64,000 bases of DNA from a virus. How positions within the stretch are numbered: the first letter of the stretch is position 1; each line of letters opens with the position of its first letter. A model generated the notes under the pieces. It was not told the origin of the DNA, ran no database searches, and saw nothing but the letters and a program-made list of their open reading frames with translations. The position numbers and the translations under genes were made by a program. The stretch spans positions 18,222-82,221 of the IMG/VR virus record IMGVR_UViG_3300028654_000014; one strand, 5' to 3'. This document shows positions 29,397 to 56,169 of this stretch, piece by piece.

Positions 29397-32300
29397 TTAA
29401 CGATAAGCCCTTGAACTTTGACCAATTTCACCTGTCAAAGTAATTCCAAAAAGAGAATATTTTTCTCTAGCAATTGAATGAGTAAATTGACAATTTAAAT
29501 ATCTACATCTTTGAACATCTCTAGGAATATAAGTTCTTGATGGAGCAGAATTTGATGCCCCACCAAAAAATCCATAACCAAATCCTGTTGGACCTGGAAC
29601 TCCATGAACTGAAGCAGGAATTCCTGTATAACCAAATATACCATTACCTGTACCAAGTACTGGAACATCAATAAAAGATGGTAATAGATCACTAGAAAAA
29701 CTTAAAGTTGCAGAAGTAAAAGCTTTATTTTCAAACATTGTTGTTGCTTCACGAACATGTTTTAAATTTAATGGATCACCAAAAGTTTGAGGTGCCCATT
29801 GAATATTTGATTTAATAGATTTAAAAATAGTCAAAGGACCAATAAGAAAATCTAATTTGTTGTTTAAAGTAACTCTTTTATTTGAAATATTAACCTTTGT
29901 AATAATAGCTTCTTGTAAAGTATTATTTACTATTTGTTGATAATTATTAAAAGCAGTACCAGTATCATTATTTAAAGTTAAAATCATTCCATTGTAAGAA
30001 GATTCAATATCTGCAAAATCATTGTTATTTACAGTTAAACTTCCAGTAGTACCTGCAACTTGTACTGATACTGGAATAGTAAATGTATTAGAAGTAAGAA
30101 CAGTTACAGGATAAGTTCCATCAATATTAGGAACAGAATCACTACCACTAATTGTAATTATTCTTCCACTTGTTAAGTTATGAGCACCAAATGTTGTAAT
30201 TACAGTAGGATCACTAGCAGAAATACCAGTAATAACTACTACAGAATTATTAGATTCATAAACAGTATAACTTGAACCAGGATCAGCTCCAGGTTGAGCT
30301 AATCTTCCAGCATCTGTAGCAATTTTAGCCAATAATAAATCTAATTGATTTCTAGCATTTCCACCAGGAAGTAATTGTAGAGTAGAAAAATAATTCCTAT
30401 CAGTTAAAAATACATCACTATCTAATTTAGTTAATAAAGTATTAAATTGAAAGATAGAAATAGTTTGATCTTGAGTTAAAACATCACCTACTGCAAAATC
30501 AGCAATATTACTAAATAATATTTGATCACCAAAATAATCACCAGCAACTAAATTTTGTGTTAATTCACGATCAGCATAATCATAACGATCAAAATCTTTT
30601 CTTTCTTGTTCTAAGAAATCAGTATCACCAGCTCCTAAATATTGTCTATCATTAAATGAATTAATAACACCACAAGTATCAGTTTTATCAAAAGTTGTCC
30701 ATGTATTAGTTAAAGTACTAAATCTATAACCAATAGTAGCTAAAAGATCAGTTGTCTCTTGAACTGTATAAACTGTATATGAATTATCAGATTCATAACC
30801 AATTCCCCAAGTAGCTGATTTAAAATTTGTATATTGTTCTGTTGCAAGTTTTAAAATATCAATATCAATTGGACGAGAAACAATATTAACACCAGATTCA
30901 GAAGTTGAAGTAATACCCTGAGTAGTCCATCCATAAATTAAATTATTAGATACATCTAAAGAATCAGGAGCCAATAAAATACAGCTACTATCAAATAAAG
31001 CAAGATTAAAAGGAGCAGTTTCTCCACTGATTCTAAATAATCCATCTTCTTTATAAACAAATAGACTATCTCTTAAAGGAAATATTCTAAGAATTGCTTT
31101 ATCTTTTGCACCAACATCAATTGTATTTACTAATGGTACAGCATCAGGTTGTAATATTTTAGAAAAATATATTCTATTAGGTAATACTTCATTATCAGAA
31201 GTTACAGCAGTTGTAATATTTATCAAAGCACCTCTAGTTCCAGCAACCGTTACATTTACAGGAATAGAGAAAGATGTAGGACTTATATATGAAATAGTCC
31301 AAACTCCATTAACTGAAGGAGTTGAATTAGAATTAGTGATCATTACTTGATTTTGATTAATAAGTCCATGAGGAGTTGAAGTTGTAATTACAGTAGGATT
31401 AGCAATTGAAATTGAACTTATTTGAATAGTAGGACTAATATCGGGATTAAAAGACAATCCTGTTTGAGAATTATTTCCAACAATAAAAAAGGGACTATTA
31501 GTTAAAGATCTAGCTTCAAATAATATTTGACCAGGAACACCTGTAGGACCTGAAAGATAATAAGCATAAATAGGAGAATTAGGATCTCTATTAATAATAT
31601 CAATTAAGCTTCTAGCAGTTTGATCAACAGCTTGTGCAGGACTTATAACATTTGATAATAGTATTTGATTTAAAGAAGGATCAGCTCCAACTCCAGGAGT
31701 TAAAACGCTTGAAGTAAATCCAGAAGTACCATTAGTAGGAGCAGCAGCACTTCCTTCATTGATATTAGTAACTGTAATATGATTTGTAGAAAATACTGAA
31801 GTAAAATCTTGAACAATTGTATTAATAACATTACTTGTTTTTATAGCAACAGTATTAGCCGAATCATTTGTTACAAGATCAACTAATACTCCAGTTTTAT
31901 TAGCTACAAGAGGATCAGTTCCAACTCCATTAACTTTATACCAAATATAATAAGAAGTTGTATCATTAGCATCATTGATTGTAAAATATTTCCCAGCTAA
32001 ATTACCTGAAACATCTGCTACTGTATTAATTTGAACAATTTGTGCAACTCCAAGAACGAAAGTATATGTAGTTGTAGTAGTGCCATCAGACAATGTAATT
32101 GTTGGAATTGTACCTGCATTAATTTCAGCAATCATTTGTTCTACACCTAATAAACTAATATCTAATCTTTGACGAGTACGAGTATTAGCATAAAACATGA
32201 CATTCTTAAAATTGTTAATATCTAATGCAAATGGAGGTAAATCATTTGCTTGTAAAATACCTTCACCAGTTGTAGCATTTGTATATAGAAAAGCTCCAGC

Positions 32301-34349
32301 AAATGCTTGAGGAGTAACATCAAGAACTGTAATAAAACCATTTATTATATCTTGAGCTGTAGGAAATCCTTCAAATACTAATTTTAATTCATCACTAGGA
32401 GCTATATCTGTAGCTAAAACTTGAGTTTGAGAAGCAGTAACAATATCTGATCTATAAATTTGATAAAAATCATTAACAGTTACACCAGCTGGAATTGTAA
32501 AAGTTAATAAAACATTAGCACTATTAGTCAATTGAATTGTTGATAAGAAATTAGTTTGAGAGTTTGAACTAATAGTAGGAGGTGTACCAGTTGAAGTTTC
32601 TGATTGTAATCGAGTTATAATAGCTAATAAATAATTTTGTAAAGCTAATAATTGAGCATCAGTTGTTGGAATTGAAGGAACAGCAGGTTGAGCAATAATT
32701 TCATATTCATAACTATGAATTGTAGCGTTACTAAATGAAACAGGACCACCAGCAGTTGTATTAAAATTAATTGCTGCGTCGAAATTTAAAGTAGCACCAG
32801 TTGTATTAGAAATAGCATTTTGACTAAGAGTTATTGTATTAATTCCTACAGCTGTTACATAAGTTCCAGCAGCAATATGTCCAGGACTAGTAACAATTAC
32901 ACCAACATTAATACCAGAAGTACTTGCAACACTTGTAATTATATTAGAATCAGTACCTTGAGTTATAGAAACAATACTAAACCCTGTAGTACCCATAGTA
33001 GCATCAGTAGTAGCACCAATAGATGTATTTGTAATAACAACATTATTAGTTGAACCTGAAGTTATAAAATCAGCATTAAATCCATTTAAAGCTTGTCTAA
33101 TATTAGCAGCAACGGTATTTGCTGAATCATTTGCAGAAATATTTACTCTAATACCTGTTTTACCAGAAACATTTGGATCAGTTCCAGTATTATCAGAATT
33201 TAACCAAACATAATATTGAGTTGCATCATTAGCACTATTAATTAAGAAATATGAACTATTAAGACTTGAATTAATATCAGCAATAGTAGTTAAAGAAGTA
33301 CTTTCAGCAACACCTAATGTTGTATTACCAGTTGTTGTAAATGTAGGAACTAATGTTGAAACAACTTCATTAGCAACACCAGTTGTAGGATTAATAAAAC
33401 TACCAGTAGTAGGAGTAAAATTATTTAATAATATATTACTACCAGATACAAAGTAATTAGCTGGATTTCCAGAAGAGAAACTAATTGTTCCAATTCCAGA
33501 ATTAATTGAAGCTCCACCAATTTGTAAAGGAGCAACAGAAACTTGATCAGCATATAAAATAGATTGATCTAATTTTGCAGCTAAAGCGATTAGATTTGCT
33601 TGTAATTCTTGAGCAGAAGCCGAAGGTCCTAAATTTAAAGAAGAAAAGAAATTAAGAGCTGTTATAAGACTAGGATTAGAAACGTTAGCACTAATATTAT
33701 TTAATTGATTTAGAATATTATTAAAATCCATTAATACCATTGTTGATAATGGATTAAATACAACAACTCTAGCAGTAGGAGATCCTAAAACTAAATTTCC
33801 ATTAGCATCAGTATAACCCCAAACTTGTCTATAAGCTACAGCACTATCTGGAGGTAAAAATCCTGATTGTAATCCTAAAGAGAAATCCAACACAGCTGAT
33901 AAATCTAAAGCTTTAATTCCACCAGCGGGAGTTATATAAGGACAAGCTGTTGTAAAATCAGCAGCAGTTTTAGCTGAAATCTTTTCAATACCATTAGAAG
34001 TTGTAAAGTAAAAATTACCATTAGCTTCTTTAAATCTTATTCTACGACCAACTTCAGGTTCTAAATAAGTTCCACAAAAACTTAAAAATTTACCAGCACC
34101 ATCACTATCATATTGTAATTGATTTGAGAAGTGTCTTAAAATTCTATTTTTATATGTCATTAATTGTTTTGCACGATCAGAAGATGAACCCATAGCATTA
34201 CCATATAAAGGATAACCTCTACGTGGCTCAATAACGCCATCACGCTTAATAATGACATTACTAGCTACTGCTAGACTTCCAGGAGGAAGATCTAATTGAT
34301 TAGGCTGGACATTTAATCCAGCTGCTTTTAATGTGATTGATGCTGACAT
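29397..34349 (-). CDS. Giant beta-rich neck/tail protein with repeat modules
   Basis: 1650 residues. It starts ITLKAAGLNVQPNQLDLPPG, a type of N-terminus seen in large structural proteins of podovirus-like phages. Two FCCH-like modules are visible (DNA 31218-31425 and 30030-30240), each with the order VITT, HGL/HNL, ITxSxSxPxIDG and FTIPVSV. Two copies of another repeat contain NDAN/SAND, YYIW/YYVW and NDSANTVA. The C-terminal 200 residues lack repeats and end in a compact domain. Located directly downstream of the connector-like gene, so it is probably a tail hub or tail tubular component. Confidence 0.68.
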   Translation of the reverse strand: MSASITLKAAGLNVQPNQLDLPPGSLAVASNVIIKRDGVIEPRRGYPLYGNAMGSSSDRAKQLMTYKNRILRHFSNQLQYDSDGAGKFLSFCGTYLEPEVGRRIRFKEANGNFYFTTSNGIEKISAKTAADFTTACPYITPAGGIKALDLSAVLDFSLGLQSGFLPPDSAVAYRQVWGYTDANGNLVLGSPTARVVVFNPLSTMVLMDFNNILNQLNNISANVSNPSLITALNFFSSLNLGPSASAQELQANLIALAAKLDQSILYADQVSVAPLQIGGASINSGIGTISFSSGNPANYFVSGSNILLNNFTPTTGSFINPTTGVANEVVSTLVPTFTTTGNTTLGVAESTSLTTIADINSSLNSSYFLINSANDATQYYVWLNSDNTGTDPNVSGKTGIRVNISANDSANTVAANIRQALNGFNADFITSGSTNNVVITNTSIGATTDATMGTTGFSIVSITQGTDSNIITSVASTSGINVGVIVTSPGHIAAGTYVTAVGINTITLSQNAISNTTGATLNFDAAINFNTTAGGPVSFSNATIHSYEYEIIAQPAVPSIPTTDAQLLALQNYLLAIITRLQSETSTGTPPTISSNSQTNFLSTIQLTNSANVLLTFTIPAGVTVNDFYQIYRSDIVTASQTQVLATDIAPSDELKLVFEGFPTAQDIINGFITVLDVTPQAFAGAFLYTNATTGEGILQANDLPPFALDINNFKNVMFYANTRTRQRLDISLLGVEQMIAEINAGTIPTITLSDGTTTTTYTFVLGVAQIVQINTVADVSGNLAGKYFTINDANDTTSYYIWYKVNGVGTDPLVANKTGVLVDLVTNDSANTVAIKTSNVINTIVQDFTSVFSTNHITVTNINEGSAAAPTNGTSGFTSSVLTPGVGADPSLNQILLSNVISPAQAVDQTARSLIDIINRDPNSPIYAYYLSGPTGVPGQILFEARSLTNSPFFIVGNNSQTGLSFNPDISPTIQISSISIANPTVITTSTPHGLINQNQVMITNSNSTPSVNGVWTISYISPTSFSIPVNVTVAGTRGALINITTAVTSDNEVLPNRIYFSKILQPDAVPLVNTIDVGAKDKAILRIFPLRDSLFVYKEDGLFRISGETAPFNLALFDSSCILLAPDSLDVSNNLIYGWTTQGITSTSESGVNIVSRPIDIDILKLATEQYTNFKSATWGIGYESDNSYTVYTVQETTDLLATIGYRFSTLTNTWTTFDKTDTCGVINSFNDRQYLGAGDTDFLEQERKDFDRYDYADRELTQNLVAGDYFGDQILFSNIADFAVGDVLTQDQTISIFQFNTLLTKLDSDVFLTDRNYFSTLQLLPGGNARNQLDLLLAKIATDAGRLAQPGADPGSSYTVYESNNSVVVITGISASDPTVITTFGAHNLTSGRIITISGSDSVPNIDGTYPVTVLTSNTFTIPVSVQVAGTTGSLTVNNNDFADIESSYNGMILTLNNDTGTAFNNYQQIVNNTLQEAIITKVNISNKRVTLNNKLDFLIGPLTIFKSIKSNIQWAPQTFGDPLNLKHVREATTMFENKAFTSATLSFSSDLLPSFIDVPVLGTGNGIFGYTGIPASVHGVPGPTGFGYGFFGGASNSAPSRTYIPRDVQRCRYLNCQFTHSIAREKYSLFGITLTGEIGQSSRAYR
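30030..30240 (-). repeat. FCCH-like module copy B (within the 1650-residue protein)
   Basis: Encodes ISASDPTVITTFGAHNL through NTFTIPVSVQVAGTTGS, about 70 residues. Same segment order as the copies at 31218, 35098 and 47121. Confidence 0.65.
31218..31425 (-). repeat. FCCH-like module copy A (within the 1650-residue protein)
   Basis: Encodes ISIANPTVITTSTPHGL, then NSNSTPSVNGVW and TSFSIPVNVTVAGTRGA. It is the copy most similar to the one in the head protein at 47121, also at nucleotide level. Confidence 0.68.
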
Positions 34350-34355
34350 TATTTA

Positions 34356-35900
34356 TTATGTTCTCCTGGTAGTTCCGAGTTTTCCATACCTAAGTAAAGA
34401 ATGTCGGTTATTAACTTTTTGAGGAGTTCCTTCTGAACGATTATCTAAAAGATTACCTTGACGTTGTTCAATTTCTGCAATTTTTGCATTAGAAGTTGCC
34501 AAACCTGCTTGATCTCCAATTGCTGCCAATATTCTAGCAGCTGTTCTTTCAGCTAAACCATTATGTAAATCAGGAGGAATTTGAGGAATGATAGCTTCAT
34601 TTGCTAAACAAATATAATCATTAGGTTTAATATCTGCTAATATAAACTGTATAGGATTAGAATGAATATCTTTTGTTATTCCATTATTAATAGTTCCAGT
34701 AGGAACAAGTAATTGTTTTTGTTGAAATGTAATAGTAGTTCCACTAATTCCAGTTGGACTTATTAAAACATCATATTTATAAATTCTATGACCTGGTTCT
34801 GTTTGTAGAAAATCTATTAATGTATTAGGTTGAAATAAAGGTTCTGTAATATTAGTTTCATTATCAGTATAAACACTTGGTAATGAATCAAATACAATAC
34901 CTATAGTATGTTGAGGAATCATAAATGCTATAGTATTACTAGTTATAATAGGCATTCTAATATTAAGAAAGAAAGGTATTACTAAATTTAGAGAATTAGT
35001 TGAAGTTGTATAATCAATAGCAGTTGCATTAATAGATGCCGATAAATTTGCAGCAGTTAAAGCATCACTTACAGCAATTTGAAATTGATTAGTTGATGTA
35101 AATGTTCCAGTTGAACCTGATGTTGCTATTTGAAAAGGAATAGTAAAATTATTAGGATCAAGAACAGTTACACAATAAGTTCCATCAATAATTGGATTTG
35201 AGTTACTTCCGGTAATAGTTACAAATTGACCAGTAGATAATTGATGATTAGCTGAAGCAATTTGAGTTGCAGTAGATGATAAAGCAGTAATCGAACTAAT
35301 TGAACCACCTAAAGTATTAACAGCAGTATAAATTGTTTTTCCTAAAGTAATTGTATCTAAAGGAACAATTAAACTGTTATTAATTCTAATAGGTTGATTA
35401 AAACCTTGAACAATCGCAGCACGATCATTTTTTACTAACTGATTAGGACGAAGATAAAATACAAATACTAAAGATCCTGTAGGAGAATCTACAACACCAG
35501 GAGTTAATACTACATCATTACCTTCAATATAAAATTTATGAATAGCTTGATTAGATCCGATATTTGCTTGAAAAAAAGCTTTATCATGTTCTTCAATTCG
35601 AGTCATTTCGAAAAGATTGCCGTTTTGATCCATCCAAAATAAATCACGAAGTTTCATTCCTGTTGCGCGTCCAGGAATTGGATACTTACTTAAATTAGTT
35701 TTTAATGGAGTAGTAACATAATTTACAAAATACTCTTCATGAAATTGAAGAATAGTAGGTACCTGCGAAATGAACATTTCTTCATTCGCAAAAGCTAAAA
35801 TATCAAGATTGGTAAAAGTGTTTTGACTTATTGGAAACGCAATTTTACGTTTAACACTATCAATAATGTCATAACTCGTATACCATGGTTTTATAGACAT
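34356..35900 (-). CDS. Head-tail connector / tail tubular A-like protein
   Basis: 514 residues. The N-terminus (SYDIIDSVKRKIAFPISQ, LDILAFANEEMF) and the C-terminal helices (LHNGLAERTAARILAAIGDQ) are of the kind found in podovirus connector proteins that sit below the portal. An FCCH-like module is inserted in the middle (DNA 35098-35302). It precedes the giant neck/tail gene by seven bases. A good AGGAGG ribosome-binding site precedes the ATG. Confidence 0.68.
   Translation of the reverse strand: MSIKPWYTSYDIIDSVKRKIAFPISQNTFTNLDILAFANEEMFISQVPTILQFHEEYFVNYVTTPLKTNLSKYPIPGRATGMKLRDLFWMDQNGNLFEMTRIEEHDKAFFQANIGSNQAIHKFYIEGNDVVLTPGVVDSPTGSLVFVFYLRPNQLVKNDRAAIVQGFNQPIRINNSLIVPLDTITLGKTIYTAVNTLGGSISSITALSSTATQIASANHQLSTGQFVTITGSNSNPIIDGTYCVTVLDPNNFTIPFQIATSGSTGTFTSTNQFQIAVSDALTAANLSASINATAIDYTTSTNSLNLVIPFFLNIRMPIITSNTIAFMIPQHTIGIVFDSLPSVYTDNETNITEPLFQPNTLIDFLQTEPGHRIYKYDVLISPTGISGTTITFQQKQLLVPTGTINNGITKDIHSNPIQFILADIKPNDYICLANEAIIPQIPPDLHNGLAERTAARILAAIGDQAGLATSNAKIAEIEQRQGNLLDNRSEGTPQKVNNRHSLLRYGKLGTTRRT
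35098..35302 (-). repeat. FCCH-like module copy C (within the connector-like protein)
   Basis: Encodes ISSITALSSTATQIASANHQ, then ITGSNSNPIIDGTYCVTVL and NNFTIPFQIATSGSTGT. The most diverged of the four copies. Confidence 0.6.
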
Positions 35901-43489: not shown

Positions 43490-43972
43490 TTAACTATTTG
43501 TAATAGATTTAGCTTGATATGAAATAATACCGTTATGAGCAGTTCCAGCTAATAAAACAGATGAAAATTGAACTTGACCAATATCGGTAATATTAAAACT
43601 AACTTGAGCATCACCAACTAATTCTTGACTTATTTCCCATTTACTATTTGTAGGATTTGTAGCATTATAATTAATAAATATTTGACCTGTTTCAGTTGCA
43701 GTAACAGATGATGTATTTCTATAAACAGAATAGGTGATGATAGCACCTTGGACATTACTACTTGGAAAAGTAAGATTCGGCAAACTAACATTTGTATTAG
43801 CATTGGAAGTCATTACGAAGATTTGAGATGGTACATCATAAGGTCCAGCGAAGGAATTTAATGTATTTTGAATGGCTTGGAATGCTTCGATTATTGCTGG
43901 TGCCCAGTTGGGACTTTCCCCAGATGAGGGAATATTAATCGTAGTTCCACCGATTATTATTGGAATTGACAT
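43490..43972 (-). CDS. Hypothetical beta-rich virion protein
   Basis: 160 residues. The N-terminus has SIPIIIGGTTINIPSSGESP and NWAPAIIEAFQAIQNTL, a pattern seen in small phage fibre-associated proteins; the remainder is beta-rich. It overlaps the HNH stop by one base. Confidence 0.6.
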   Translation of the reverse strand: MSIPIIIGGTTINIPSSGESPNWAPAIIEAFQAIQNTLNSFAGPYDVPSQIFVMTSNANTNVSLPNLTFPSSNVQGAIITYSVYRNTSSVTATETGQIFINYNATNPTNSKWEISQELVGDAQVSFNITDIGQVQFSSVLLAGTAHNGIISYQAKSITNS

Positions 43973-44532
43973 TACTTTTTAACCTCTAAAATACTACAAT
44001 ATTTATTTGACTTTTTAATATTATGAATCTTCCATAAAGGTTGTAAATTCTTGTAATTATTAACTTTTAAGAATTCTTCCCTAATAGTTAAATCAACTTT
44101 ACTTAAAGGGATAATATGATCTAATTCCCACTTACCATAATTATCCCACGACATACCTTCTGTGAATTGTTTTTCTAAATGAATCTTTAATTCATCTATA
44201 GAACATCCCAAATCCTTTACAGCTGATCCTGCCTTTTGATTTTGTTTTAAAGCATGATAAAGCCGACTTCTTAAATTATGAGCTAATCTGAAGTTTGTAT
44301 TAATCTTACGATGTTCTTTAACATATATTTTTCTATAATTTTTGACTTTTTCTTTATTATTTTTTATATATTTTTTAACATATGTATATTTATTATTATT
44401 TTGTTTCTGATATTCAGCTTTTTTTAACTTAAAACATGATTTACAATCATATCTAAAACCATCTTTAGATTGCTTATAACGATAATATTCTTTATAATCT
44501 TTTAAATTATTACATGTTTTACAGATTTTCAT
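43972..44532 (-). CDS. HNH endonuclease in the late block
   Basis: 186 residues. The N-terminal zinc finger has CKTCNN and CKSC. A long basic linker follows, then an HNH domain with WELDHIIPLS, NNYKNLQPLWKIHN and KKSNKY. This is a common free-standing phage homing endonuclease. It sits behind its own TTAACAACTATA motif and after the terminator of the capsid gene, so it appears to be a self-contained insertion. Confidence 0.88.
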   Translation of the reverse strand: MKICKTCNNLKDYKEYYRYKQSKDGFRYDCKSCFKLKKAEYQKQNNNKYTYVKKYIKNNKEKVKNYRKIYVKEHRKINTNFRLAHNLRSRLYHALKQNQKAGSAVKDLGCSIDELKIHLEKQFTEGMSWDNYGKWELDHIIPLSKVDLTIREEFLKVNNYKNLQPLWKIHNIKKSNKYCSILEVKK

Positions 44533-44674: not shown

Positions 44675-45922
44675 TTAGTTAGAATTCACTACGTTGATTA
44701 TAATCGTATTTCGTCCTGGAGCCATACAAAAAACAGCCTGGTCAGAATACAATCGTAATTCATAAGCAGCAGCATTCTCTAGATCTCTAAAGAATTCTTC
44801 ACCTTGTCCAGGACGTTTAAAGGTCATGTCAGTTGAACCAACACGGAACCATTCGTCAAGACTTAGTACATAAGAATAGCCTTCTTTTACATAAATAGAA
44901 GGTTCGATCTCGATTTCACCATTTTGAGAGTGAAACAAGATTGAACTTGATCCATTTTCAGCTTTTGAAGAACTATAGCTGGAATCATACTTACGGAGAG
45001 CAGCTTGATCAGAAAGCATATTAGCCCATGCACGAGGATTGCAAAGAGATAATACACGACCGTCCAAACCTTTCTCAACTGCTCTAGCTACTGCTTGATT
45101 CAACTTTGTGAAGCTGAGCGCACCAGATTGAGCATCATATTGATTGCCACGGAAGAGATTATAATTCCCTACATCGATATTAAACAAAATACCTGAACTG
45201 ATTGTCAAGATTTTGTGAATACCAGGGAATTCATTACCGAAAGCACCTTTATGCCAAATAATATCTGTAGCGATAACACTTGGAATAGCAGATGTAAGGG
45301 TAATTGTTCTAAGAGTCATATCAACAGATTGAACTACAGAAGAACCACGACTTGTAGCACCTGTAGAATCTCTGATTTCAATTGGCATACCTTCAGCACC
45401 GGCCCAGATACCTGGTGCCCATTCTGGGGTAGAGATTGTAATAACAGCTCCAGCAACGGAACCTACTACACCATAACCAATTTGACCATAAAGCATTTCG
45501 ATTTCAAGCTTTTTAGCCATTGATCGAAGCATGTTTGCAACAAGAAACTTTGTAGCATCCATGAAAGCTTTTTGTCCACCAAGAGCTGCACGAGAAGCAG
45601 CAGCATAACCGAGTAAAGATCTCAAAACAACGGGATTACCGCGAATTTGAGCATCTTTTACTTGACCAGCTACAGGAGCATTCAAATTGAATGCATCTTC
45701 ATCTGAAGCAGCAAATGTAACACCATGCTCTAATCCGAGGATTACAGGTTGATGATACAAATTACCTGGTTGTTTTTCTTTCGACATAAATTTAATTTTA
45801 TTTAACAGTTTTACTCCATCTGGGATAAGTTCTTTAAGCTTATCAGCATATGTTTCTTTGAAAAAACCGTTAAGTGTACCAACCGAATTATTCGGGGTAC
45901 CAAACGTATTTGCAGTTGCCAT
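44675..45922 (-). CDS. Major capsid protein
   Basis: 415 residues. Size, position after the scaffold gene and the segments TYADKLKELIPDGVKLLNKI, NLYHQPVILGLEHGVTFA, AAASRAALGGQKAF and LEIEMLYGQIGYG match coat proteins of podovirus-like phages. Followed at once by a strong terminator and preceded by AAGGAG, as expected for a very highly expressed gene. The fold is presumably HK97-type. Confidence 0.85.
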   Translation of the reverse strand: MATANTFGTPNNSVGTLNGFFKETYADKLKELIPDGVKLLNKIKFMSKEKQPGNLYHQPVILGLEHGVTFAASDEDAFNLNAPVAGQVKDAQIRGNPVVLRSLLGYAAASRAALGGQKAFMDATKFLVANMLRSMAKKLEIEMLYGQIGYGVVGSVAGAVITISTPEWAPGIWAGAEGMPIEIRDSTGATSRGSSVVQSVDMTLRTITLTSAIPSVIATDIIWHKGAFGNEFPGIHKILTISSGILFNIDVGNYNLFRGNQYDAQSGALSFTKLNQAVARAVEKGLDGRVLSLCNPRAWANMLSDQAALRKYDSSYSSSKAENGSSSILFHSQNGEIEIEPSIYVKEGYSYVLSLDEWFRVGSTDMTFKRPGQGEEFFRDLENAAAYELRLYSDQAVFCMAPGRNTIIINVVNSN

Positions 45923-45942: not shown

Positions 45943-46410
45943 TTAATTACCATCTACAACAGAGTATTCGACTTCTAAACATAAATCGGAACTTGTTGAA
46001 GCAAAACTTGGAACACCACTAACACTTAGCATCATATTGCCTGATATTGAAACGCCTGTACTAGAAACAGAACCTGTATCGATATGACCAGAGTAACTTG
46101 TTCCTAATATACGACTTTTCACTACACATTGCATTACTTTTGCAACTTTTTCACCAACAACAACCAAGATATTTAGTTGACCACTAGAATCACTTGGAGA
46201 TTGATTAGCGAATGCCGCAGCAGCTATTGAGTCAGCAGCTGTAATTTGATTAACACCTTGGCTTTGTAAGAACAAAACACTCGGCTCATCATTAGAAAGA
46301 AGTACGCTTGCAGGTGTTGCACTAGCCGTTACAGAAAACGGAATAGTCAACTTTTGGACCTTTAACTGTCGGTCCATTGCGAGCGAACTTTTCGCATAAA
46401 AATCTGACAT
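45943..46410 (-). CDS. Head-surface protein, paralogue 1
   Basis: 155 residues. The N-terminus (LAMDRQLKVQKLTI) and C-terminus (DLCLEVEYSVVD) match the start and end of the products at 46616 and 46986, with a different beta-rich middle. Located directly before the capsid gene in the same transcript, so a capsid decoration or cement role is likely. Confidence 0.62.
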   Translation of the reverse strand: MSDFYAKSSLAMDRQLKVQKLTIPFSVTASATPASVLLSNDEPSVLFLQSQGVNQITAADSIAAAAFANQSPSDSSGQLNILVVVGEKVAKVMQCVVKSRILGTSYSGHIDTGSVSSTGVSISGNMMLSVSGVPSFASTSSDLCLEVEYSVVDGN

Positions 46411-46463: not shown

Positions 46464-46548
46464 GCTAATTTCAGATCACCGATATTCTTACTCTGCTATA
46501 AACAGGTTATAAGAAGTCTAAGACAGAACTACGTTTAAATTTCTTAGA

Positions 46549-46615: not shown

Positions 46616-46960
46616 TTATAAATGTTCAATAACACTATATTTTACTATTAAAAGATCATTAGCAGCTAAAGATGCTAAACCTGTGATCTTAATTGCACCT
46701 AAATTACTAGGAGCAGCGTTTGTAAGTGAAGAAGAATCAACGATTGACAAGCTAGATTGAGCAAATTCAGTCCAAGTATTTGAACCGTCTACTTTTACTC
46801 TAGCAAGAAAGATCTTTTCTAGTGGCTCACGAATAAATACAAACATATTTCCACCGGAAATACTGTATAAACCTTGATCGGCACCACTCATTGACAATTC
46901 TTGAACTCTTAACGATTGTTGCATCGTTTGTTCATTTTTAGGATTAAATCCTACTGACAT
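46616..46960 (-). CDS. Head-surface protein, paralogue 2 (minimal core)
   Basis: 114 residues. Start MSVGFNPKNE, then SLRVQELSMSG and GLYS, middle FIREPLEKIFLARVKVDGSNTW and end LLIVKYSVIE. The same segments occur in the gene at 46986, interrupted there by two extra domains, so this is the bare core of the family. GGAG ribosome-binding site. Confidence 0.66.
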   Translation of the reverse strand: MSVGFNPKNEQTMQQSLRVQELSMSGADQGLYSISGGNMFVFIREPLEKIFLARVKVDGSNTWTEFAQSSLSIVDSSSLTNAAPSNLGAIKITGLASLAANDLLIVKYSVIEHL

Positions 46961-46985: not shown

Positions 46986-48263
46986 TTAAACGTTACGATT
47001 TGCTGGATCTGTTGGTTCACTAACTATATATTTTACAACAGCTAGATCATTTGCATTAAAAGCTGAACCTGGAAGTCCCAACAATCTAATTGCACCTGCG
47101 TCACTAACAGGATATTTCCTATCAACATAACCTTGATTTCCAGATACTGTAACATTTACAGGAATAGAAAAAGTAGTTGGACTTAAAACAATAACTTGTT
47201 GATAGCTATTAATACTTGGTGTTGAATTAGAATTAGTTATATAAACTATTTGACCAGTAATCATATTATGAGGATATGAAGTTGTAATTACGGAAGGATT
47301 AGCAGCACTAATACTTGAAATTTGTAGTAATTGATCATCAACAATAACAATTTCAGCTTGATTGAAATCGTACATTGTATTTGATGCGTCAACTTTACAA
47401 AAAGCATTAGAAACCTTTTTAACTGGTTCACGAACATAGATTGTAAGATCAGTTGATGGTGAAGAAGTACTACCACTAATAGCAATAATTGTACTTATGT
47501 TACTAACAGTAATAGCAGCATTTAATGCTATTAAACTACCATTAATTGTTGCACTTTGAGTTACAGTGATACTAGTATTTGCAATAATGTTACCATTAAA
47601 TACAGCTCCAGTACTTGCTACAGATTGATTGATCGTAGCTGAACTTCCAACAACGAAATATACGTTTTTAGCTAAAGCACCACCAGTTAAAGCAATAACA
47701 GGAAGATCAGTACTACCTGAAGCTCCAGTTAAAAGAGTAGAAGCTGTATAAATAACAAATCTTCCAGGACCATTAAGAGTAAGTGTGCTATGTCCACTTG
47801 TTAGTGAAATACCAGCACTACCAGATGCAAATTGAAAAGCAACAGTTGCACCAGCAACAGGTGAATTTAAAGTTTGTCCACCAAGTTCAGATGGAATTGT
47901 AGTTCCAGCTAAACCTAAAGTTTGTAATGCGGTAAATGCAGAAGAAGCAGCATTTTGAGCAGCAAGAGCAGCTGCATTACCAAGATCAGTAGAACCTGAA
48001 ACAGTAAATGATCCAGTAACGGTACTACCAGGAGATTCTCCTAAATTACCAGTTACAACTGAAGTTCCAACACTATTTGTTATTGCAACTGCTGCTAAAA
48101 TACCATATCCACCAGCAACACCCATATAAGGATCACTAGTTATGATAGGAGCACCAGGAGCCGTTGAATAAAGACCATAATCTAACCCACTTACAGCTAA
48201 TTCCTGAACTTTTAATTCTCTATCTAATATTAATTCATTTTTAGGATTGAAACCTACAGACAT
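46986..48263 (-). CDS. Head-surface protein with DUF3494 ice-binding-like and FCCH-like insertions
   Basis: 425 residues. Residues 1-33 (MSVGFNPKNE ... GLYS) and the segments YVREPVKKVSNAFCKVDASN (276-295) and AIRLLGLPGSAFNANDLAVV (391-410) match the 114-residue neighbour. Residues 52-262 form a DUF3494-type domain, the fold of bacterial and algal ice-binding proteins and adhesins: TGNLGESPG, an alpha helix of AALAAQNAASSAFTALQ, then GRFVIYTAS, VYFVVGSSATI and NGNIIANTSITVTQSATING. Residues 315-381 are an FCCH-like module. Probably displayed on the capsid; binding target unknown. Confidence 0.8.
   Translation of the reverse strand: MSVGFNPKNELILDRELKVQELAVSGLDYGLYSTAPGAPIITSDPYMGVAGGYGILAAVAITNSVGTSVVTGNLGESPGSTVTGSFTVSGSTDLGNAAALAAQNAASSAFTALQTLGLAGTTIPSELGGQTLNSPVAGATVAFQFASGSAGISLTSGHSTLTLNGPGRFVIYTASTLLTGASGSTDLPVIALTGGALAKNVYFVVGSSATINQSVASTGAVFNGNIIANTSITVTQSATINGSLIALNAAITVSNISTIIAISGSTSSPSTDLTIYVREPVKKVSNAFCKVDASNTMYDFNQAEIVIVDDQLLQISSISAANPSVITTSYPHNMITGQIVYITNSNSTPSINSYQQVIVLSPTTFSIPVNVTVSGNQGYVDRKYPVSDAGAIRLLGLPGSAFNANDLAVVKYIVSEPTDPANRNV
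47121..47321 (-). repeat. FCCH-like module copy D (within the head-surface protein)
   Basis: Encodes ISSISAANPSVITTSYPHNM, then ITNSNSTPSINSY and TTFSIPVNVTVSGNQGY. Close to copy A at 31218 in both protein and DNA, although 16 kb away. Confidence 0.68.
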
Positions 48264-48372
48264 TTTAATCTCCTTAAAAATTATGTTTATTTAACTTTAT
48301 TACTTGAAAAATGTCCCTACTCTGTATATCAGGTAATAAGGAGTAATTAAGTAGTACTTTAATTTCCTATAA

Positions 48373-48465: not shown

Positions 48466-49467
48466 TTATACGCCTTTGAAGAAATCTTTAAAGCTAATTT
48501 TCTTTTCCTCTTTTTTAGGCTCAGAAACTTTACCAGTATTAGGTACTTTAGAACCTGATTTTAGAGCAGGATTATTACCAGCCTGTTTTACTTTTGCTAC
48601 TGACTTCTTTCTTAAACGATTAAGAACATCTTTTCCAATAAAATCTTCAAGATCATCTTCTGACATTGAAGCTAGGATTTCAGAATAATCATTTTTAAGA
48701 TCTTCGCGAATTAAAGGGATAATATCTTCAGGAGTAACATCTTTTCCAGCTTCAAGACCAATTAACATATAATCAGCCATTCTTTTGATAATTGCTGGAT
48801 TTTTAGGAACATTATGTTTTTCTAATGCTTGAGACATTAACATATCATAACGCTCATATTCTTGTTCTTTAAGACGTTCCAATTCCTTTTGATTACCTTC
48901 ATTCTTTTCTCTTTCACGTTGTTCTTTTAATTCACTAAGTTCTAATTGAAGTTTTTCTTTTTCAAGTTGTTCTGGAGATTTTTTAGAATTTGCAATCTCT
49001 TCTTCCATAATTTCAACAGCAAATTTCTTTAAATCCATTCCAATAGCAGGATCAGAAAGAGCTTTTCTTGGATTCTTTCTTAAATCTTCAATAAATTGTA
49101 GAACTTCTTTTTCAATAGAAGCTTTTTCTTGGGCACGTTTTTGACCCATTCTTCCCATTTGTAATTCTCTACGCATATATTCAATTGCTTTAGGATCGTT
49201 AGGAATTTCAAAAGGAAGTTCTTCTTCATATTCTTGACCATCAATTTTTAAAGTTAATTTCTTTAAAAACTTTTCAGCTGCTTTTTTCTCTGTTTTTGAA
49301 GCATTTGGATTCTTTAAAACAGATTTAGCTTCAGCAGCAATAGCTTGAGTTGGAGGATTTGATTGTTGATTACCATCCTGGGAATTTCCAGCTACAGCAT
49401 TTTCAACTTGATCTCCTAAACCTGATATTGAGTCTTGTACGGATGTACTTTGTGATTCGTCTGACAT
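48466..49467 (-). CDS. Scaffolding protein
   Basis: 333 residues, highly charged and helical. Acidic Ser/Gln-rich N-terminus, a short beta segment (LTLKIDGQEYEEELPFEI), long coiled coil (about 110-210, LELSELKEQREREKNEG) and a basic C-terminus (KKEEKKISFKDFFKGV) that could bind coat protein. The composition, size and place before the head genes are those of podovirus scaffolds. Confidence 0.78.
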   Translation of the reverse strand: MSDESQSTSVQDSISGLGDQVENAVAGNSQDGNQQSNPPTQAIAAEAKSVLKNPNASKTEKKAAEKFLKKLTLKIDGQEYEEELPFEIPNDPKAIEYMRRELQMGRMGQKRAQEKASIEKEVLQFIEDLRKNPRKALSDPAIGMDLKKFAVEIMEEEIANSKKSPEQLEKEKLQLELSELKEQREREKNEGNQKELERLKEQEYERYDMLMSQALEKHNVPKNPAIIKRMADYMLIGLEAGKDVTPEDIIPLIREDLKNDYSEILASMSEDDLEDFIGKDVLNRLRKKSVAKVKQAGNNPALKSGSKVPNTGKVSEPKKEEKKISFKDFFKGV

Positions 49468-49985: not shown

Positions 49986-51194
49986 TTATAAATCTTGTTG
50001 AACTATTACACCTAAACCTTGACCACCACCAGTAGCAAGTATAGCAGCTGGAGCAGCAACAGTTATACCAACATCATTAATTTCTTCAGAAACCATATTG
50101 TCAGAACGTATTAAAAATATTCTTCCTCCACCGCCTCCAGCTCCTCCACCACCGCCAGTACCTGTTGTAATACTATTACCACCAAACCCATTACCACCCG
50201 CTCCACCATTACCACCAGAAGCAGATAAAGCATTTAATACTAAAGGTCCAGATAATGTTTTATATGCAATATAAATATATCCACCGCCTCCACCACCACC
50301 TCCAGAACCACCACCAGTAACTCCAGCAGAAGCACCATTGGAACCGTTTCCACCATTACCACCATTTGCTTGAAAAACGTTAGAAGGAGTAGAAGAACTT
50401 TTTATAATATTTCTAGCATATAAAGCTATAACTCCACCACCGTTACCACCAGCTCCACCTGCTCCACCAGCATTTGTACCATCTCCACCACCAGAAGAAC
50501 CACCACGTCCACCTGCTCCACCATTTATTAATGTTACTCCAGCAAGAAAATTTGTTGTCCATGTTCTAATATCTTTTGGAGTAGGAGTAGTTGCAACACC
50601 AGCTGCTCCACCAGCATTAGTTCCAGCTCCTGCAACAGCAGAAGCTCCACCAGGTCCACCTCCACCAGTAATAGCACCACCAGCAGTACCAGCTGAACCT
50701 GCACCTGTACCAGAACTAGCTCCAGCACCACCTTGACTACCTACACCAATTGAACCTGCAACAGGAAGAGTAGGAGCTGTACCTCCTGTAGTTCCAGAAG
50801 CATTTCCACCATTTAAACCGTTTACATTTATTGCTCCAGCTTGAGCATTTGAAATATCTAAATTATTTAAAACAAATATTCTATAACCATTAGGATTTAA
50901 AACTCCTGTTCCAGAAAGAGTTAAATTGTTGTAATACATATCTCTTGTTAAAGTTGTTGTTCCTGAAGAAATTGTAATATTACCATCAGAACCATCACCA
51001 TAACTTTGTGATATTGTTGAAACTGCTGGACCAGATGAAGCGGCATAAGATAATCCTGTCCAAGCTGTAACTCCATCTCCAAATTTAAATTTTCCAGTAT
51101 CAGATTCAAGACCTATTTCACCTTGAGCTAATATTGGATTTGTTGAAGTCCATTGAGCTGCTGTACCATTTCGAAGTTCTATGTGATATGCCAT
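49986..51194 (-). CDS. Glycine-rich adhesin-like protein, tandem copy 4
   Basis: 402 residues. The N-terminal domain (IELRNGTAAQWTSTNPILAQ, GEIGLESDTGKFKFGDG) is a phage fibre tip/attachment type. It is followed by DGNITISSGTTTLTRDMYYNNL and long GG-x-GG-x-rich stretches alternating with conserved hydrophobic strands (VIALYARNI, GGGGYIYIAYKTL, GGGGRIFLI). The glycine pattern is compatible with polyglycine-II helices as in T-even gp38-like adhesins. Four paralogues lie in a row (49986-54852). Confidence 0.72.
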   Translation of the reverse strand: MAYHIELRNGTAAQWTSTNPILAQGEIGLESDTGKFKFGDGVTAWTGLSYAASSGPAVSTISQSYGDGSDGNITISSGTTTLTRDMYYNNLTLSGTGVLNPNGYRIFVLNNLDISNAQAGAINVNGLNGGNASGTTGGTAPTLPVAGSIGVGSQGGAGASSGTGAGSAGTAGGAITGGGGPGGASAVAGAGTNAGGAAGVATTPTPKDIRTWTTNFLAGVTLINGGAGGRGGSSGGGDGTNAGGAGGAGGNGGGVIALYARNIIKSSSTPSNVFQANGGNGGNGSNGASAGVTGGGSGGGGGGGGYIYIAYKTLSGPLVLNALSASGGNGGAGGNGFGGNSITTGTGGGGGAGGGGGRIFLIRSDNMVSEEINDVGITVAAPAAILATGGGQGLGVIVQQDL

Positions 51195-51195
51195 T

Positions 51196-52416
51196 TTATA
51201 AACTCACTTGTACGATGTTACCAGCGCCACCTGCGCCACCAGTTCCAGCTGATTGAGCAGAACCAGCACTACCTGCTGAACCAAAAGATTCAGATCCTGT
51301 TCCATTTAATATATTTAATAATGTAACTCTACCACCTGATCCACCAGTACCTCCAGCTCCTCCAGATCCTACTGTTGAACTAGCAAATCCAACACCATTT
51401 CCACCTGTACCACCTGTACCACCAGAAGCTGATAAAGCATTTGTTGCAGTAGATCCAGTTAAAGTATTATAAATTACAAATACCCATCCACCACCTGAAC
51501 CTCCACCACCGCCCCCACCACCGGCAATACCAGTTGTAGGAGTTCCTCCAGCACCACCATTACCACCCAATGCTGAAATAGCGTTAGCAGCAGTAGATCC
51601 ACCACGTTTTATTATATTTGCATATAAAGCTAATACTCCACCGCTATTACCAGAAGCTCCTCCTCCTCCACCTTTATTAGTACTATCACCGCCTCCACCG
51701 CCTCCTGATCCTCCACTAGCTCCACCACTAATAAGTGTTATACCTTTAATTAAATCAATTGCCCAACGTCTAATTGATAAAGAAGCTGTTACAGTTCCAC
51801 CAGCAGCACTAGTACCACCTGCATTACTATTTCCAAAACCACCTGATCCACTAGCACCACCCGCTCCACCATTTCCTAATGCAGCAGTAGTACCAACAGT
51901 ACCTATTGTACCTGTTGTAAGTTGACCAGCACTACCAACTATACCAATAGAAGCTCCACCAATATTTCCAGCAGCTTGAGCAACAGGAGCAGTTCCACCA
52001 GTTCCATTTGCTTGTCCTGCTCCACCCATATTTCCATTAAAATTTATTGCTGAAGCTCCGGCAGCTGTAATATCTAATGTACCAGCTACAAATAATCTAA
52101 AACCTGCTGTGTATATTTGACCTGTACCACTAATCGTTAAATTATTAAAATATATATCTCTTGTTAAATTTAAAATACCAGCAGTTAATGTTATATTACC
52201 ATCTGATCCATCACCAAATGATTCTAAATCTTGTGTAGGAGCTGCACCGCTAACACCACCATATGATAAAGTTGAATAAGTTGAAGAACCATCACCAACT
52301 TTATAATTTCCAGTATCTCTTTCCCATCCAATTTCACCTTGAGCTAATATTGGATTTAATAAATACCAATCTGATTTAGTATCATTTCTTATTTGTATTT
52401 GAGAATTAACAGCCAT
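51196..52416 (-). CDS. Glycine-rich adhesin-like protein, tandem copy 3
   Basis: 406 residues, N-terminus IQIRNDTKSDWYLLNPILAQ. Same three-part plan as the flanking copies: attachment domain, beta segment (DGNITLTAGILNLTRDIYFN) and glycine-rich end (GGGGGSGGGWVFVIYNTLTG). The N-terminal parts are more alike than the loops between glycine runs, as expected for variable binding surfaces. Confidence 0.72.
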   Translation of the reverse strand: MAVNSQIQIRNDTKSDWYLLNPILAQGEIGWERDTGNYKVGDGSSTYSTLSYGGVSGAAPTQDLESFGDGSDGNITLTAGILNLTRDIYFNNLTISGTGQIYTAGFRLFVAGTLDITAAGASAINFNGNMGGAGQANGTGGTAPVAQAAGNIGGASIGIVGSAGQLTTGTIGTVGTTAALGNGGAGGASGSGGFGNSNAGGTSAAGGTVTASLSIRRWAIDLIKGITLISGGASGGSGGGGGGDSTNKGGGGGASGNSGGVLALYANIIKRGGSTAANAISALGGNGGAGGTPTTGIAGGGGGGGGSGGGWVFVIYNTLTGSTATNALSASGGTGGTGGNGVGFASSTVGSGGAGGTGGSGGRVTLLNILNGTGSESFGSAGSAGSAQSAGTGGAGGAGNIVQVSL

Positions 52417-52417
52417 T

Positions 52418-53623
52418 TTACAAACTCACTGAAAAATTGTTAAGACTTGCACCAGCTCCAGGAGTATTTCCTAAAGCAGTACCACCAAATGCTCCTGCTG
52501 AACCTGTAGAATCAGATGATGTTGAATTTAAAACATTTACTAAAGTTATTCTTCCACCAGAACCACTTCCACCACCATTACCACCAGCACCTGTACCAAA
52601 ACCTTGTCCACCTGATCCTCCAGCTCCACCAGCAGCTTGTAAAGCATTTGTTGCAGTTGAACCGATTAAACTATTATAAAATATAATAATCCAACCTCCA
52701 CCACCACCAGCTGATCCTCCTCCTCCACCAGTATTTCCTATACTATTCATTCCACTTGATCCACCAGTACCACCATTTGCTTGAATAGAAAATTGACTTG
52801 TACTTCCACCTCTATTTATTATATTTGCATAAATAGCAATTAATCCTCCACCATTTGCACCTGATCCACTGGCTCCAGATAGATTAACACCATCGCCACC
52901 ACCACTTCCACCAGAAGCACCACCTATTCCTGGTCTTATTAATGTTGTATTTCTTAATAATTCAGTTTCATATCTTCTAATTGGAAGAGATAAAGATCCT
53001 GTACCACCAGTACCACCATTTCCACCAGTATTTGTAGCTGAAGCTCCACCTGATGCACCATTACCACCATTACCACCATTTACAGGACTAGCATTTGCTG
53101 AAGAATTTCCAGTTGTACCTGTTGTTGTTGAACCAGCTACTCCAGCTACTCCAGTTGTTGGACCACCTAATGATTGAGAAGGTTGTGCTGCGGGAGCAGG
53201 ACCCGCTGTAGATGTTCCGATACTTATACCATTATTACCATTCCAACTAATTGCACCTTGAGCTGCTGCTGTAATATCTAAAGTTCCAGATACAAATATT
53301 CTGTATCCATTTGTTATTAAAGTTCCAGTACCATTAATAGTAAGATTATTATAATACATATCTCTTACTAAAACTGTAATACCTGAACTGATTGTTACGT
53401 TACCATCTGAACTATCACCAAAGAATTTAAAAACATTTGAAGATGCTGGTCCAATTAAACCACCATAAGATAATGCAGTCCAAGTTGAAGTAGCATTAGG
53501 ACTAATTTTATATTTACCTGTATCAGTTTCTAAACCAATTTCACCAGCAGCTAATACAGGATTAACTGAAGTCCAATTTGCTGCGGTATCTCTTCTAATT
53601 TGTATTATTCTTGAAGCTGGCAT
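52418..53623 (-). CDS. Glycine-rich adhesin-like protein, tandem copy 2
   Basis: 401 residues, N-terminus IQIRRDTAANWTSVNPVLAA. It contains the conserved RRYETELLRNTTLI strand before the last glycine-rich third and ends LNNFSVSL. It is separated from the next gene by one base, so the four copies are probably co-translated. Confidence 0.72.
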   Translation of the reverse strand: MPASRIIQIRRDTAANWTSVNPVLAAGEIGLETDTGKYKISPNATSTWTALSYGGLIGPASSNVFKFFGDSSDGNVTISSGITVLVRDMYYNNLTINGTGTLITNGYRIFVSGTLDITAAAQGAISWNGNNGISIGTSTAGPAPAAQPSQSLGGPTTGVAGVAGSTTTGTTGNSSANASPVNGGNGGNGASGGASATNTGGNGGTGGTGSLSLPIRRYETELLRNTTLIRPGIGGASGGSGGGDGVNLSGASGSGANGGGLIAIYANIINRGGSTSQFSIQANGGTGGSSGMNSIGNTGGGGGSAGGGGGWIIIFYNSLIGSTATNALQAAGGAGGSGGQGFGTGAGGNGGGSGSGGRITLVNVLNSTSSDSTGSAGAFGGTALGNTPGAGASLNNFSVSL

Positions 53624-54852
53624 TATAAATTCACCCGCATAATATTACCAGCACCACCTGTTGTACCTAATGTAGTTGTTGCTGTGACTGCTGCCGATCC
53701 TGCTGATCCTATTGAATCTGTACTTGTATTATTTAATAAATTATATAAAGTTACTCTTCCCCCACCACCGCCAGTACCACCTGTACCACCAACAGCACCA
53801 GCACCAGCTGCTGAACCATTTCCACCGTTACCACCATCACAACTTAAAGCACCTGTAGCAGTTGAACCAGTGAGAGTATTATAGACTAAATATATCCATC
53901 CTCCACCGCCTCCACCACCACCTCCACCGCCTCCAGAATTTGCAGTAGGAGTTCCACCACCATTACCACCAGTAGCACCATCAACATTTATAACTTCAGA
54001 TCCAGTACTTCCACTTCGATTTATTATATTTGCCCAAATTCCAATAACATTACCACCAGCACCACCGCCTCCTCCACCACGTCCAGTAGCACCACTTGTA
54101 CCACCACCACCTGATCCTCCAGAACCGCCAGTTCCTCCTATAAGAAGATTAGAACTTTTTAATAAATCAATTTCATAACGTCTAATTGGTAATGCTGTAT
54201 TTGTTCCGATAGATCCAACAGTTCCTCCAGTATTGGCACCAGCAGTTCCACCAATACCACCAGCTCCTCCTGAACTTCCATTTGCAAAAGCTACAGCAGC
54301 AACGTTACCACTAGCACCACCTTGAGTATTAACTCCACCAGCTCCTCCAGCACTACCAGCACCATTAGTTCCTAAAGTATTAGGAGCACTAGCAGCACCA
54401 CCAACAGCACCAGCAGTAGATGCTGAACTAGCTCCAGCATTTGCATTATTAATTATTGAAAAACTTCCAGCAGCACTTATATCTAATGTACCAGCTACAA
54501 ATATTCTAAAACTATTTGTATTTATAGAACCAGAACCACTAATTGTTAAATTATTAAAATAAGCATCTCTAGTTAAGACACCAAAATTTAAAGGTCCTGA
54601 TGATGTAAAATTTGATACAACATTTAAATTTCCATCACTAGCATCACCAAAGAATTTAAATATTTGAGTATTAGCCGGACCAATCATTCCACCATAAGAA
54701 AGTGAATTCCAAGCGATATTATCATCAAGACCAATTTTATAAAGTCTTGTGTCAGTTTCTAAACCAATCTCTCCTTCAGCAAGAAAAGGATTTGCAGCAG
54801 TCCATTGAGCTGCTGTACCTTGTCTTACCGTTAAAAGAGTACTTCGAGGCAT
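53623..54852 (-). CDS. Glycine-rich adhesin-like protein, tandem copy 1
   Basis: 409 residues, N-terminus LTVRQGTAAQWTAANPFLAE. The middle carries an extra segment (NVVSNFTSSGPLNFGVLTRD) absent from the others. The longest glycine run of the four is near GGGGGGGGGGGWIYLVYNTL. It overlaps the following copy by one base. Confidence 0.72.
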   Translation of the reverse strand: MPRSTLLTVRQGTAAQWTAANPFLAEGEIGLETDTRLYKIGLDDNIAWNSLSYGGMIGPANTQIFKFFGDASDGNLNVVSNFTSSGPLNFGVLTRDAYFNNLTISGSGSINTNSFRIFVAGTLDISAAGSFSIINNANAGASSASTAGAVGGAASAPNTLGTNGAGSAGGAGGVNTQGGASGNVAAVAFANGSSGGAGGIGGTAGANTGGTVGSIGTNTALPIRRYEIDLLKSSNLLIGGTGGSGGSGGGGTSGATGRGGGGGGAGGNVIGIWANIINRSGSTGSEVINVDGATGGNGGGTPTANSGGGGGGGGGGGGWIYLVYNTLTGSTATGALSCDGGNGGNGSAAGAGAVGGTGGTGGGGGRVTLYNLLNNTSTDSIGSAGSAAVTATTTLGTTGGAGNIMRVNL

Positions 54853-54855
54853 AAA

Positions 54856-56169
54856 TTAAGGAGTTCCTCCGACAATAACCTGAGCGGCTGTATAAAGAGA
54901 AGCAGCAGTACCACCATCAATATTATTATTTGCAATAGCTGTTGCAAAACTTAAATTACCAGAACCATCATTTTGTAAAAATGTTCCTATTGCTCCTTGA
55001 GATGAAGGAAGAGTTAATGTATAACTTGTAACTGTTGAAGGTGCTGTAACATTTACTGTACCAGAAATTGATCCATAAAATTTTGTATAACCTGTGTATA
55101 TACCACTTCCAACTTGTAACGAATCAACTCCATTATCTGTAACTGTATCAATGAGAACATTTCCTGTTGAATTTATTCTCATACGTTCAGTAGCTGTTAC
55201 TGATCCTGTTGGAGTTGTAGAAAATGCTAAATAAGTTGCATTAGAAGTATTTGTAAATGTTTCACCTGCTGTAATAGTTATAACTCCAGTACTTGCAGCA
55301 GCGAATTGTGATGTTCCATATCCTCTACCACTATATACTGATAAATTATCACCAGATTGAACAGCGGAAGGAGATAAAACAGTTCCTCTAGCAAATCTTC
55401 CTCTAAATGGAACAGATGATCCTACACCATAAGCAGTTGATTGAATAGGTTTTGCTATTCCATTCGCATTTACAATATCTAAAGATGTTGTTGTTCCTGG
55501 AATAGTATTAAGACCTAAAGTAAAATTAGTATCATCCCAGAAAAATTTAGAATTATCTTGAGTTAAAGAAGTACCATTTGAAAATATAACAGAACCAGCA
55601 GTATAAGCAGAACTATTATTTGTTCCACCATTTGCAATAGGAATAATTCCACTTAAAGATCCAGCTGGTAAATTAGTTAGATTACTACCATTAATTACAC
55701 CAAAAGTTCCACCAGATATTTGAGAACCTGAAAGAGCTAAAGATGATGCTGATGTTAAAGCTGATAATGTAGTTAAAGTTGAATTTGATGTTGCTGTAAT
55801 ATTTGAAGCAGTTCCTGTAATAGATCCAGAAGGAATAACATAATCAGTTCCAGCTGAAGCTGCACTAATTGCTGTACCATTTCCTTTTAATAAACCTGTT
55901 ATTGAAGTTGAAACTGTAATAGCTGGAGTTGTAGTTGGATTTGAAACTGTTCCAGAAAAACCATTAGCACTTACAACTGAAACATTTGTTACTGTTCCAC
56001 CTGCTAAAGTACTTGATATTGTAATTGTATTTGCTACAGATGTTACTGTAATTCCACTACCGGCAGCAATTGTTATATTAGGTCCAGGTTGACCATTAAT
56101 ACCTGTGATAGTTCCACCACCACCTCCACCGCCCGTATCACTGGGGATGTTAATAAAAATATCACTCAT
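54856..56169 (-). CDS. Tail fibre protein
   Basis: 437 residues, beta-rich. The start (IFINIPSDTGGGGGGGTITG, INGQPGPNITIAAGSGI) is a repeated fibre-shaft type. SSIIPIANGGTNNSSAYTAG-like and ERMRINSTGNVLIDTVTDNG segments occur also in the long fibre at 37238, which indicates exchange of fibre modules between the two genes. Followed by the adhesin array, which may dock on it. Confidence 0.72.
   Translation of the reverse strand: MSDIFINIPSDTGGGGGGGTITGINGQPGPNITIAAGSGITVTSVANTITISSTLAGGTVTNVSVVSANGFSGTVSNPTTTPAITVSTSITGLLKGNGTAISAASAGTDYVIPSGSITGTASNITATSNSTLTTLSALTSASSLALSGSQISGGTFGVINGSNLTNLPAGSLSGIIPIANGGTNNSSAYTAGSVIFSNGTSLTQDNSKFFWDDTNFTLGLNTIPGTTTSLDIVNANGIAKPIQSTAYGVGSSVPFRGRFARGTVLSPSAVQSGDNLSVYSGRGYGTSQFAAASTGVITITAGETFTNTSNATYLAFSTTPTGSVTATERMRINSTGNVLIDTVTDNGVDSLQVGSGIYTGYTKFYGSISGTVNVTAPSTVTSYTLTLPSSQGAIGTFLQNDGSGNLSFATAIANNNIDGGTAASLYTAAQVIVGGTP

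Follow-up and report, generated by a model that had tools for sequence, protein, structure and literature searches.

A DUF3494 domain inserted in a small, probably capsid-associated phage protein and its recurrence in other virion protein classes

DUF3494 ice-binding proteins (PF11999), such as 6EIO, 7BWX and FfIBP (4NU2), are secreted or located at the cell surface and fold in canonical order as a discontinuous beta-solenoid with a bracing helix. The activity of this family tolerates wide sequence variation, and the domain has also been reported from settings without ice and with a role in substrate binding (PMC12337378). Three phage genes with PF11999 from Arctic vOTUs were classed as auxiliary genes for host cryoprotection (PMC11515562). 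This was the only discussion of PF11999 in phages found by a literature search for which most subscription journals were outside the scope, so that prior work may exist. The record of Synechococcus phage S-SKS1, named in the same paper for homologues, gave no PF11999 match. For other beta modules a role on the virion has been described: the Ig-like domains displayed by T4 Hoc are probably adhesive (PMC10385173).

Here we analyzed a 64,000-nucleotide stretch from the record of an uncultured bacterial virus (the window). Judged by profile searches and structure prediction, a 425-aa protein of this phage is a small core protein with a DUF3494 domain inserted. The domain shares the profile, the solenoid with the bracing helix and the canonical order of the ice-binding proteins.

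A small core protein interrupted by two modules

The open reading frame of the 425-aa protein is located at 46986..48263 (-), as given in the first-pass annotation of the window. The PF11999 profile (Ice_binding, DUF3494) covers residues 55-255 with E=5.3e-22 and 79 bits, compared with a curated cut-off of 28.7, and a search of 14 unrelated control genomes with the same profile gave no matches. A sequence search of the PDB with the 425-aa protein using phmmer led to 6EIO (1e-10), followed by other ice-binding proteins, and with a profile of 20 viral DUF3494 domains the E-value reached 7e-57. The AlphaFold2 model is confident over the DUF3494 domain only and of low confidence elsewhere. Within the domain it shows a helix (97-118) and strands with a pLDDT mostly above 80. 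All 31 significant Foldseek matches in the PDB were ice-binding proteins (6eio with E 5e-12), and the highest TM score, 0.85 on target, was obtained with 7bwy. Both the identification of the insert as DUF3494 and the beta-solenoid fold that structure prediction was expected to return are supported by these data. The proposed boundaries at residues 52-262 are correct at the end, and the start lies nearer to residue 47. The domain comprises residues 47-262 in canonical, unpermuted order (47478..48125, -). Three TxT motifs are present in these 216 residues; this is a count on the sequence, and compound ice-binding proteins need no repeats.

The remainder of the protein consists of three pieces of the core. 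The N-terminal piece, residues 1-46 with MSVGFNPKNELILDRELKVQELAVSGLDYGLYS and a linker (48126..48263, -), is 62% identical to a 114-aa paralogue over residues 1-37, and 72% identical over residues 1-46 to the orthologue in the related locus L066. The middle piece (residues 265-309; 47337..47471, -) was delimited by alignment with cores of 114, 128 and 155 aa, and the C-terminal piece (residues 385-425 and the stop codon; 46986..47111, -) by the deletion experiment described below. The 114-aa paralogue is encoded directly beside (46616..46960, -) and aligns to the 425-aa protein as three pieces. It had already been recognized as an uninterrupted core, but a third paralogue of 155 aa (45943..46410, -; 106 bits with the core HMM) had been overlooked. 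This copy is of the single-copy type common among related phages, and its alignment shows about 40 extra residues in the loop in which the 425-aa copy holds DUF3494.

For the empty-site test we built the core HMM from relatives, with every window sequence excluded. The intact 425-aa protein matched this HMM in fragments only (16.0 and 10.7 bits). After deletion of residues 39-265 and 314-382 from the sequence a single full-length match of 33.7 bits was obtained. None of twenty shuffled controls scored above about 5 bits, and neither insert by itself exceeded 2.4 bits. The claim that the core is split in this paralogue is therefore upheld by the empty-site test. The AlphaFold2 model of the core reached a pLDDT of 83.5 and had no significant fold match in PDB or BFVD; naming the core by its fold was dropped for this reason. 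A search of PHROGs with the core gave no match.

The second insert, an FCCH-like module at residues 310-384 (approximate limits; 47112..47336, -), is missing from the L066 orthologue. In the 425-aa protein it matches the Pfam family below threshold (E=0.18). A PDB search led to the FCCH domain of UBA6 (E~1e-3), and the AlphaFold2 model is of low confidence in this region. Two proteins encoded in the tail region of this phage contain homologous copies: a 1650-aa protein has two (29397-34349; E 1e-18 and 1e-10) and a 514-aa protein has one (34356-35900; E 1e-7). A tail-region copy matched E1_FCCH (PF16190) with E 4e-4 and 20.9 bits, below the cut-off of 29.5. A beta module of about 70 residues is common to the core protein and these two proteins. 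As a module, the element that had been annotated at residues 315-381 is genuine; the FCCH label is weak, with scores below the Pfam cut-off.

Position of the core gene in the capsid region

The major capsid protein (MCP, 415 aa; 44675..45922, -) matches phrog_14242, major head protein, with E 2e-9. The nearest cultured homologue is from a Silvanigrella phage (27% identity). Scans of genome contigs for a host yielded only stray phage contigs in MAG bins. An HNH-like open reading frame follows directly after the MCP gene (43972-44532, -). Upstream of the core genes a scaffold-like protein of 333 aa is encoded (48466..49467, -). It was assigned by its position and its charged, helical make-up, is kept at the same place in relatives, and had no match in a family search.

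IMG/VR contained 63 loci with MCP relatives, and the 59 loci with at least 700 nt of upstream sequence were used for counting the core gene. It is present upstream of the MCP gene in 49 of these 59 relatives and absent in ten. Its location is between the scaffold-like protein and the MCP; as a rule there is one copy, which encodes an uninterrupted protein of 97-184 aa. For 32 core genes the distance from their end to the start of the MCP gene is no more than 50 nt. Many of the other matches start inside MCP genes that seem to be interrupted by inserted endonuclease genes. In L101, L103 and L111 an endonuclease-like open reading frame comes after an N-terminal fragment of the MCP.

The slot between scaffold and MCP genes is the location of decoration proteins in several phages. 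Because most of the related phages have the gene for a plain core immediately before the MCP gene, a location of the core on the capsid surface is likely; its absence in the ten other relatives is as expected of a dispensable decoration protein. Since the core fold matches neither PDB nor BFVD entries, including known decoration proteins, there is no homology tie to these proteins. The first-pass description as a head-surface protein is consequently likely by virtue of synteny, and the fold lends it no support.

The gap before the core gene (about 100-220 nt) is conserved. A TTTTAACAACTATA motif is followed there by a hairpin, which lies 70-110 nt upstream of the start codon and is built as GAC-[6 bp]-UWACC-[3 bp]-loop-GAG-[6 bp]-UAYC. 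In the window such hairpins lie upstream of the 425-aa gene (48310-48345, -) and of the 155-aa gene (46481-46518, -). The hairpin is found at the same place in about 20 relatives, and RNAalifold predicted 10 pairs, 9 of them with compensatory double changes. A search of Rfam with the hairpin gave no match. The element has the appearance of a structured leader, not described before, together with its promoter. Between the portal and scaffold genes there is a run of fibre-like genes of about 400 aa (49986-56169, -). The two genes tested both contain a major-tropism-determinant N-terminal domain. A diversity-generating system (DGR) for these Mtd-like fibres was rejected, as no reverse transcriptase was found in the whole record.

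DUF3494 in related and unrelated phages

In L066, whose MCP is 88% identical to that of the window, a 341-aa orthologue carries DUF3494 at the same point and is followed by a plain 128-aa core copy. In L032 (MCP 65% identical) the domain sits in another loop of a 411-aa copy, which lies beside a plain 171-aa copy; the flanks of this pair are 57% and 60% identical. A search of 37 records, 35 of them virus records, detected PF11999 in five (L066, L032, L098, L105 and L120). In the last three, which are records of this MCP family, a 344-aa protein encoded upstream of the scaffold (2872-3906 in L098 and L105, 2871-3905 in L120) shows a partial match (profile positions 87-203, 93 bits). Core-borne DUF3494 is confined to three lineages, each of which has kept a plain copy beside it. 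Among the loci of this MCP family that possess the core, more than one core copy is present in every lineage with core-borne DUF3494 and in no other locus. L030, L035 and L050 have other head modules, with an MCP similarity to the window that is marginal at best (E 0.001, L030), and in these loci DUF3494 is borne by one or more genes after the MCP gene. In L050 a plain protein of 220 aa is followed by one of 451 aa with the insert, and the flanks are 68% and 60% identical.

Using the C-terminal two thirds of the domain as query, we found about 58 DUF3494 loci in IMG/VR, with the domain in open reading frames of 326-2585 aa. The carriers are almost always large and comprise sheath proteins of the tail, baseplate wedge proteins, fibre-like proteins and proteins encoded next to the capsid genes; none of them resembles a secreted host protectant. 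In an alignment of 17 distinct sheath-like proteins, 14 match the tail sheath family phrog_279, and the remaining three are of a type homologous to the annotated Mx1 sheath. The proteins of 2386-2585 aa match the baseplate wedge family phrog_6, and other carriers are fibre-like or unclassified. With the Pfam profile, each of 36 records contained one to five PF11999 matches, in frames of 305-2784 aa. The scan was seeded with virion-embedded domains and may miss standalone viral ice-binding proteins; a few frames of 305-350 aa had no class. A tblastn search of 50,697 records of cultured phages with several viral and bacterial queries, limited by the low-complexity filter, revealed no DUF3494. 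The original proposal of a domain on the capsid was too narrow, as many phages also carry DUF3494 in their sheath or baseplate proteins, in fibre-like proteins or in other proteins encoded near the capsid genes. Viral "ice-binding genes" are likely to be often parts of the virus particle and not cryoprotectants of the host.

Circular permutation of the domain, with the C-terminal part, from the long helix onwards, preceding the N-terminal part, is seen in L030 and in about 19 distinct proteins of sheath type. Pairwise BLAST of the window protein with L003 aligned residues 149-265 with 214-319 and then 47-84 with 321-357, and a Pfam search of the records showed the same two-piece order. One sheath, L053 (phrog_16991, E 5e-5), has the canonical order. 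The domain is permuted in contractile-tail sheaths (L003, L006, L015 and others) and canonical in baseplate and fibre proteins, sometimes within the same record.

A tree of 86 DUF3494 domains placed nearly all viral domains apart from the bacterial ones. The domain of the window groups with domains from tail and baseplate proteins of other phages (support 99/96) and not with L066. It is 67% identical to the domain of L011 and 53% identical to that of its own orthologue in L066. The domains of L066, L032 and L050 group with L012 (98/91), and within this group L032 and L050, from two different head modules, form a pair (95/94). Because the window domain is nearer to tail domains of other phages than to that of L066, despite the close relationship of the MCPs, shuffling is suggested; the FCCH-like module agrees, as its nearest relatives sit in tail-region proteins of the same phage. 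A specific swap between window and L066 is favoured by the tree, but an AU test did not reject the two domains as sisters (p 0.157). From these sequence comparisons, exchange of the module between phage proteins is likely, not proven.

Possible role of the inserted domain and comparison with known systems

We regard the 425-aa protein as probably a capsid decoration (cement-type) protein turned into a display protein, with DUF3494 as a shuffling adhesion module of the virion surface. The small core would bind to the capsid lattice, and the solenoid, inserted in a surface loop, would be held outward in many copies. Hoc and other displays of Ig-like domains (PMC10385173) are the analogy on which this proposed outward, multivalent display is based. 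As the 114-aa and 155-aa copies are kept alongside, subunits with and without the domain could share the capsid sites or divide these between them. DUF3494 would then be one of a set of modules that phages shuffle among virion proteins (capsid, sheath, baseplate and fibre), where they occupy exposed loops. By the same analogy its most likely work may be weak multivalent adhesion to polysaccharide of cells or matrix, to particles or to ice.

Three other readings have to be weighed against this display protein. The domain could be a structural module that stabilizes or spaces neighbouring subunits of head, sheath or baseplate and binds nothing. Its appearance in very different virion proteins would fit, as would the variable contents of the slots, since the Mx1 sheath lacks DUF3494 in that region and L066 lacks the FCCH-like module. 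The distribution speaks against it: the core gene is widespread and the domain is restricted to three lineages, hence not needed for the capsid, and a plain copy is retained beside the domain-bearing one in each of them. We judge a purely structural part to be doubtful. Slightly less credit is given to virions that adhere to ice, in which DUF3494 would keep ice binding and the particles would adsorb to ice, or be protected at ice fronts during freeze-thaw; attachment would also hold the virus near ice-associated hosts. All characterized structures that match the fold are ice-binding proteins, the closest PDB sequences come from Antarctic organisms, and the activity of the family is tolerant of sequence variation (PMC12337378). 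The same paper describes DUF3494 in organisms that do not live in icy habitats, and as a domain for substrate binding, which argues against this, as may the low number of TxT motifs, with no obvious ladder. Ice as the ligand is possible, as the family name suggests, and in our view unlikely. The broader version, a module moving freely in canonical or permuted form through capsid, sheath, baseplate and fibre proteins, which binds ice in some of them and renders whole particles ice-adhesive, seems equally improbable.

Very little speaks for an auxiliary gene whose product is made in the infected cell and protects the host from freezing, although this is the published interpretation of the phage PF11999 genes from Arctic vOTUs (PMC11515562). 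The N-terminal hydropathy, taken as the highest 10-residue value within the first 40 residues, has a median of 2.6 in bacterial DUF3494 open reading frames from two phyla, which have hydrophobic signal or lipoprotein N-termini, compared with 1.5 in the viral ones (p=2e-10). The window protein, with the N-terminus MSVGFNPKNELILDREL, has a maximum of 1.1 and no signal peptide. Its domain, moreover, forms part of a capsid-operon protein, and sheath and baseplate proteins harbour it in other phages.

For a decoration protein turned display protein, several consequences follow. A different reading of the "ice-binding" genes of viromes is suggested, as the majority of the viral PF11999 domains in this set resemble components of the virion. 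Alongside the Ig-like domains, a second fold family would join the promiscuous display domains of phages. The loci also provide, as found in nature, insertion sites in both the empty and the occupied state, and they include a natural circular permutation of a solenoid, which was unexpected. Whether a virion sticks to ice, matrix or particles is directly testable with one domain.

Compared with the described systems, the Arctic vOTU genes belong to the same Pfam family and also lie on phage contigs. PMC11515562 assigns those three genes, known to us by description, to host cryoprotection, whereas we interpret the domain as part of a structural protein. The DUF3494 ice-binding proteins differ in that they act outside or at the surface of the cell, while in the window the domain is inserted in a protein that lacks a signal peptide and is probably located on the capsid surface, and many phage sheath domains are circularly permuted. 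Like the core, capsid decoration proteins beside the MCP (the position of lambda gpD) are small, beta-rich and encoded between scaffold and MCP genes, but the core matches neither gpD nor any solved decoration protein in fold or sequence. T4 Hoc and the Ig-like insertions in major capsid and tail proteins likewise represent a promiscuous beta module on several virion proteins, dispensable and probably adhesive. Their fold is unrelated, and Hoc consists of a string of Ig domains on a C-terminal capsid-binding domain, whereas here a solenoid is inserted in an internal loop.
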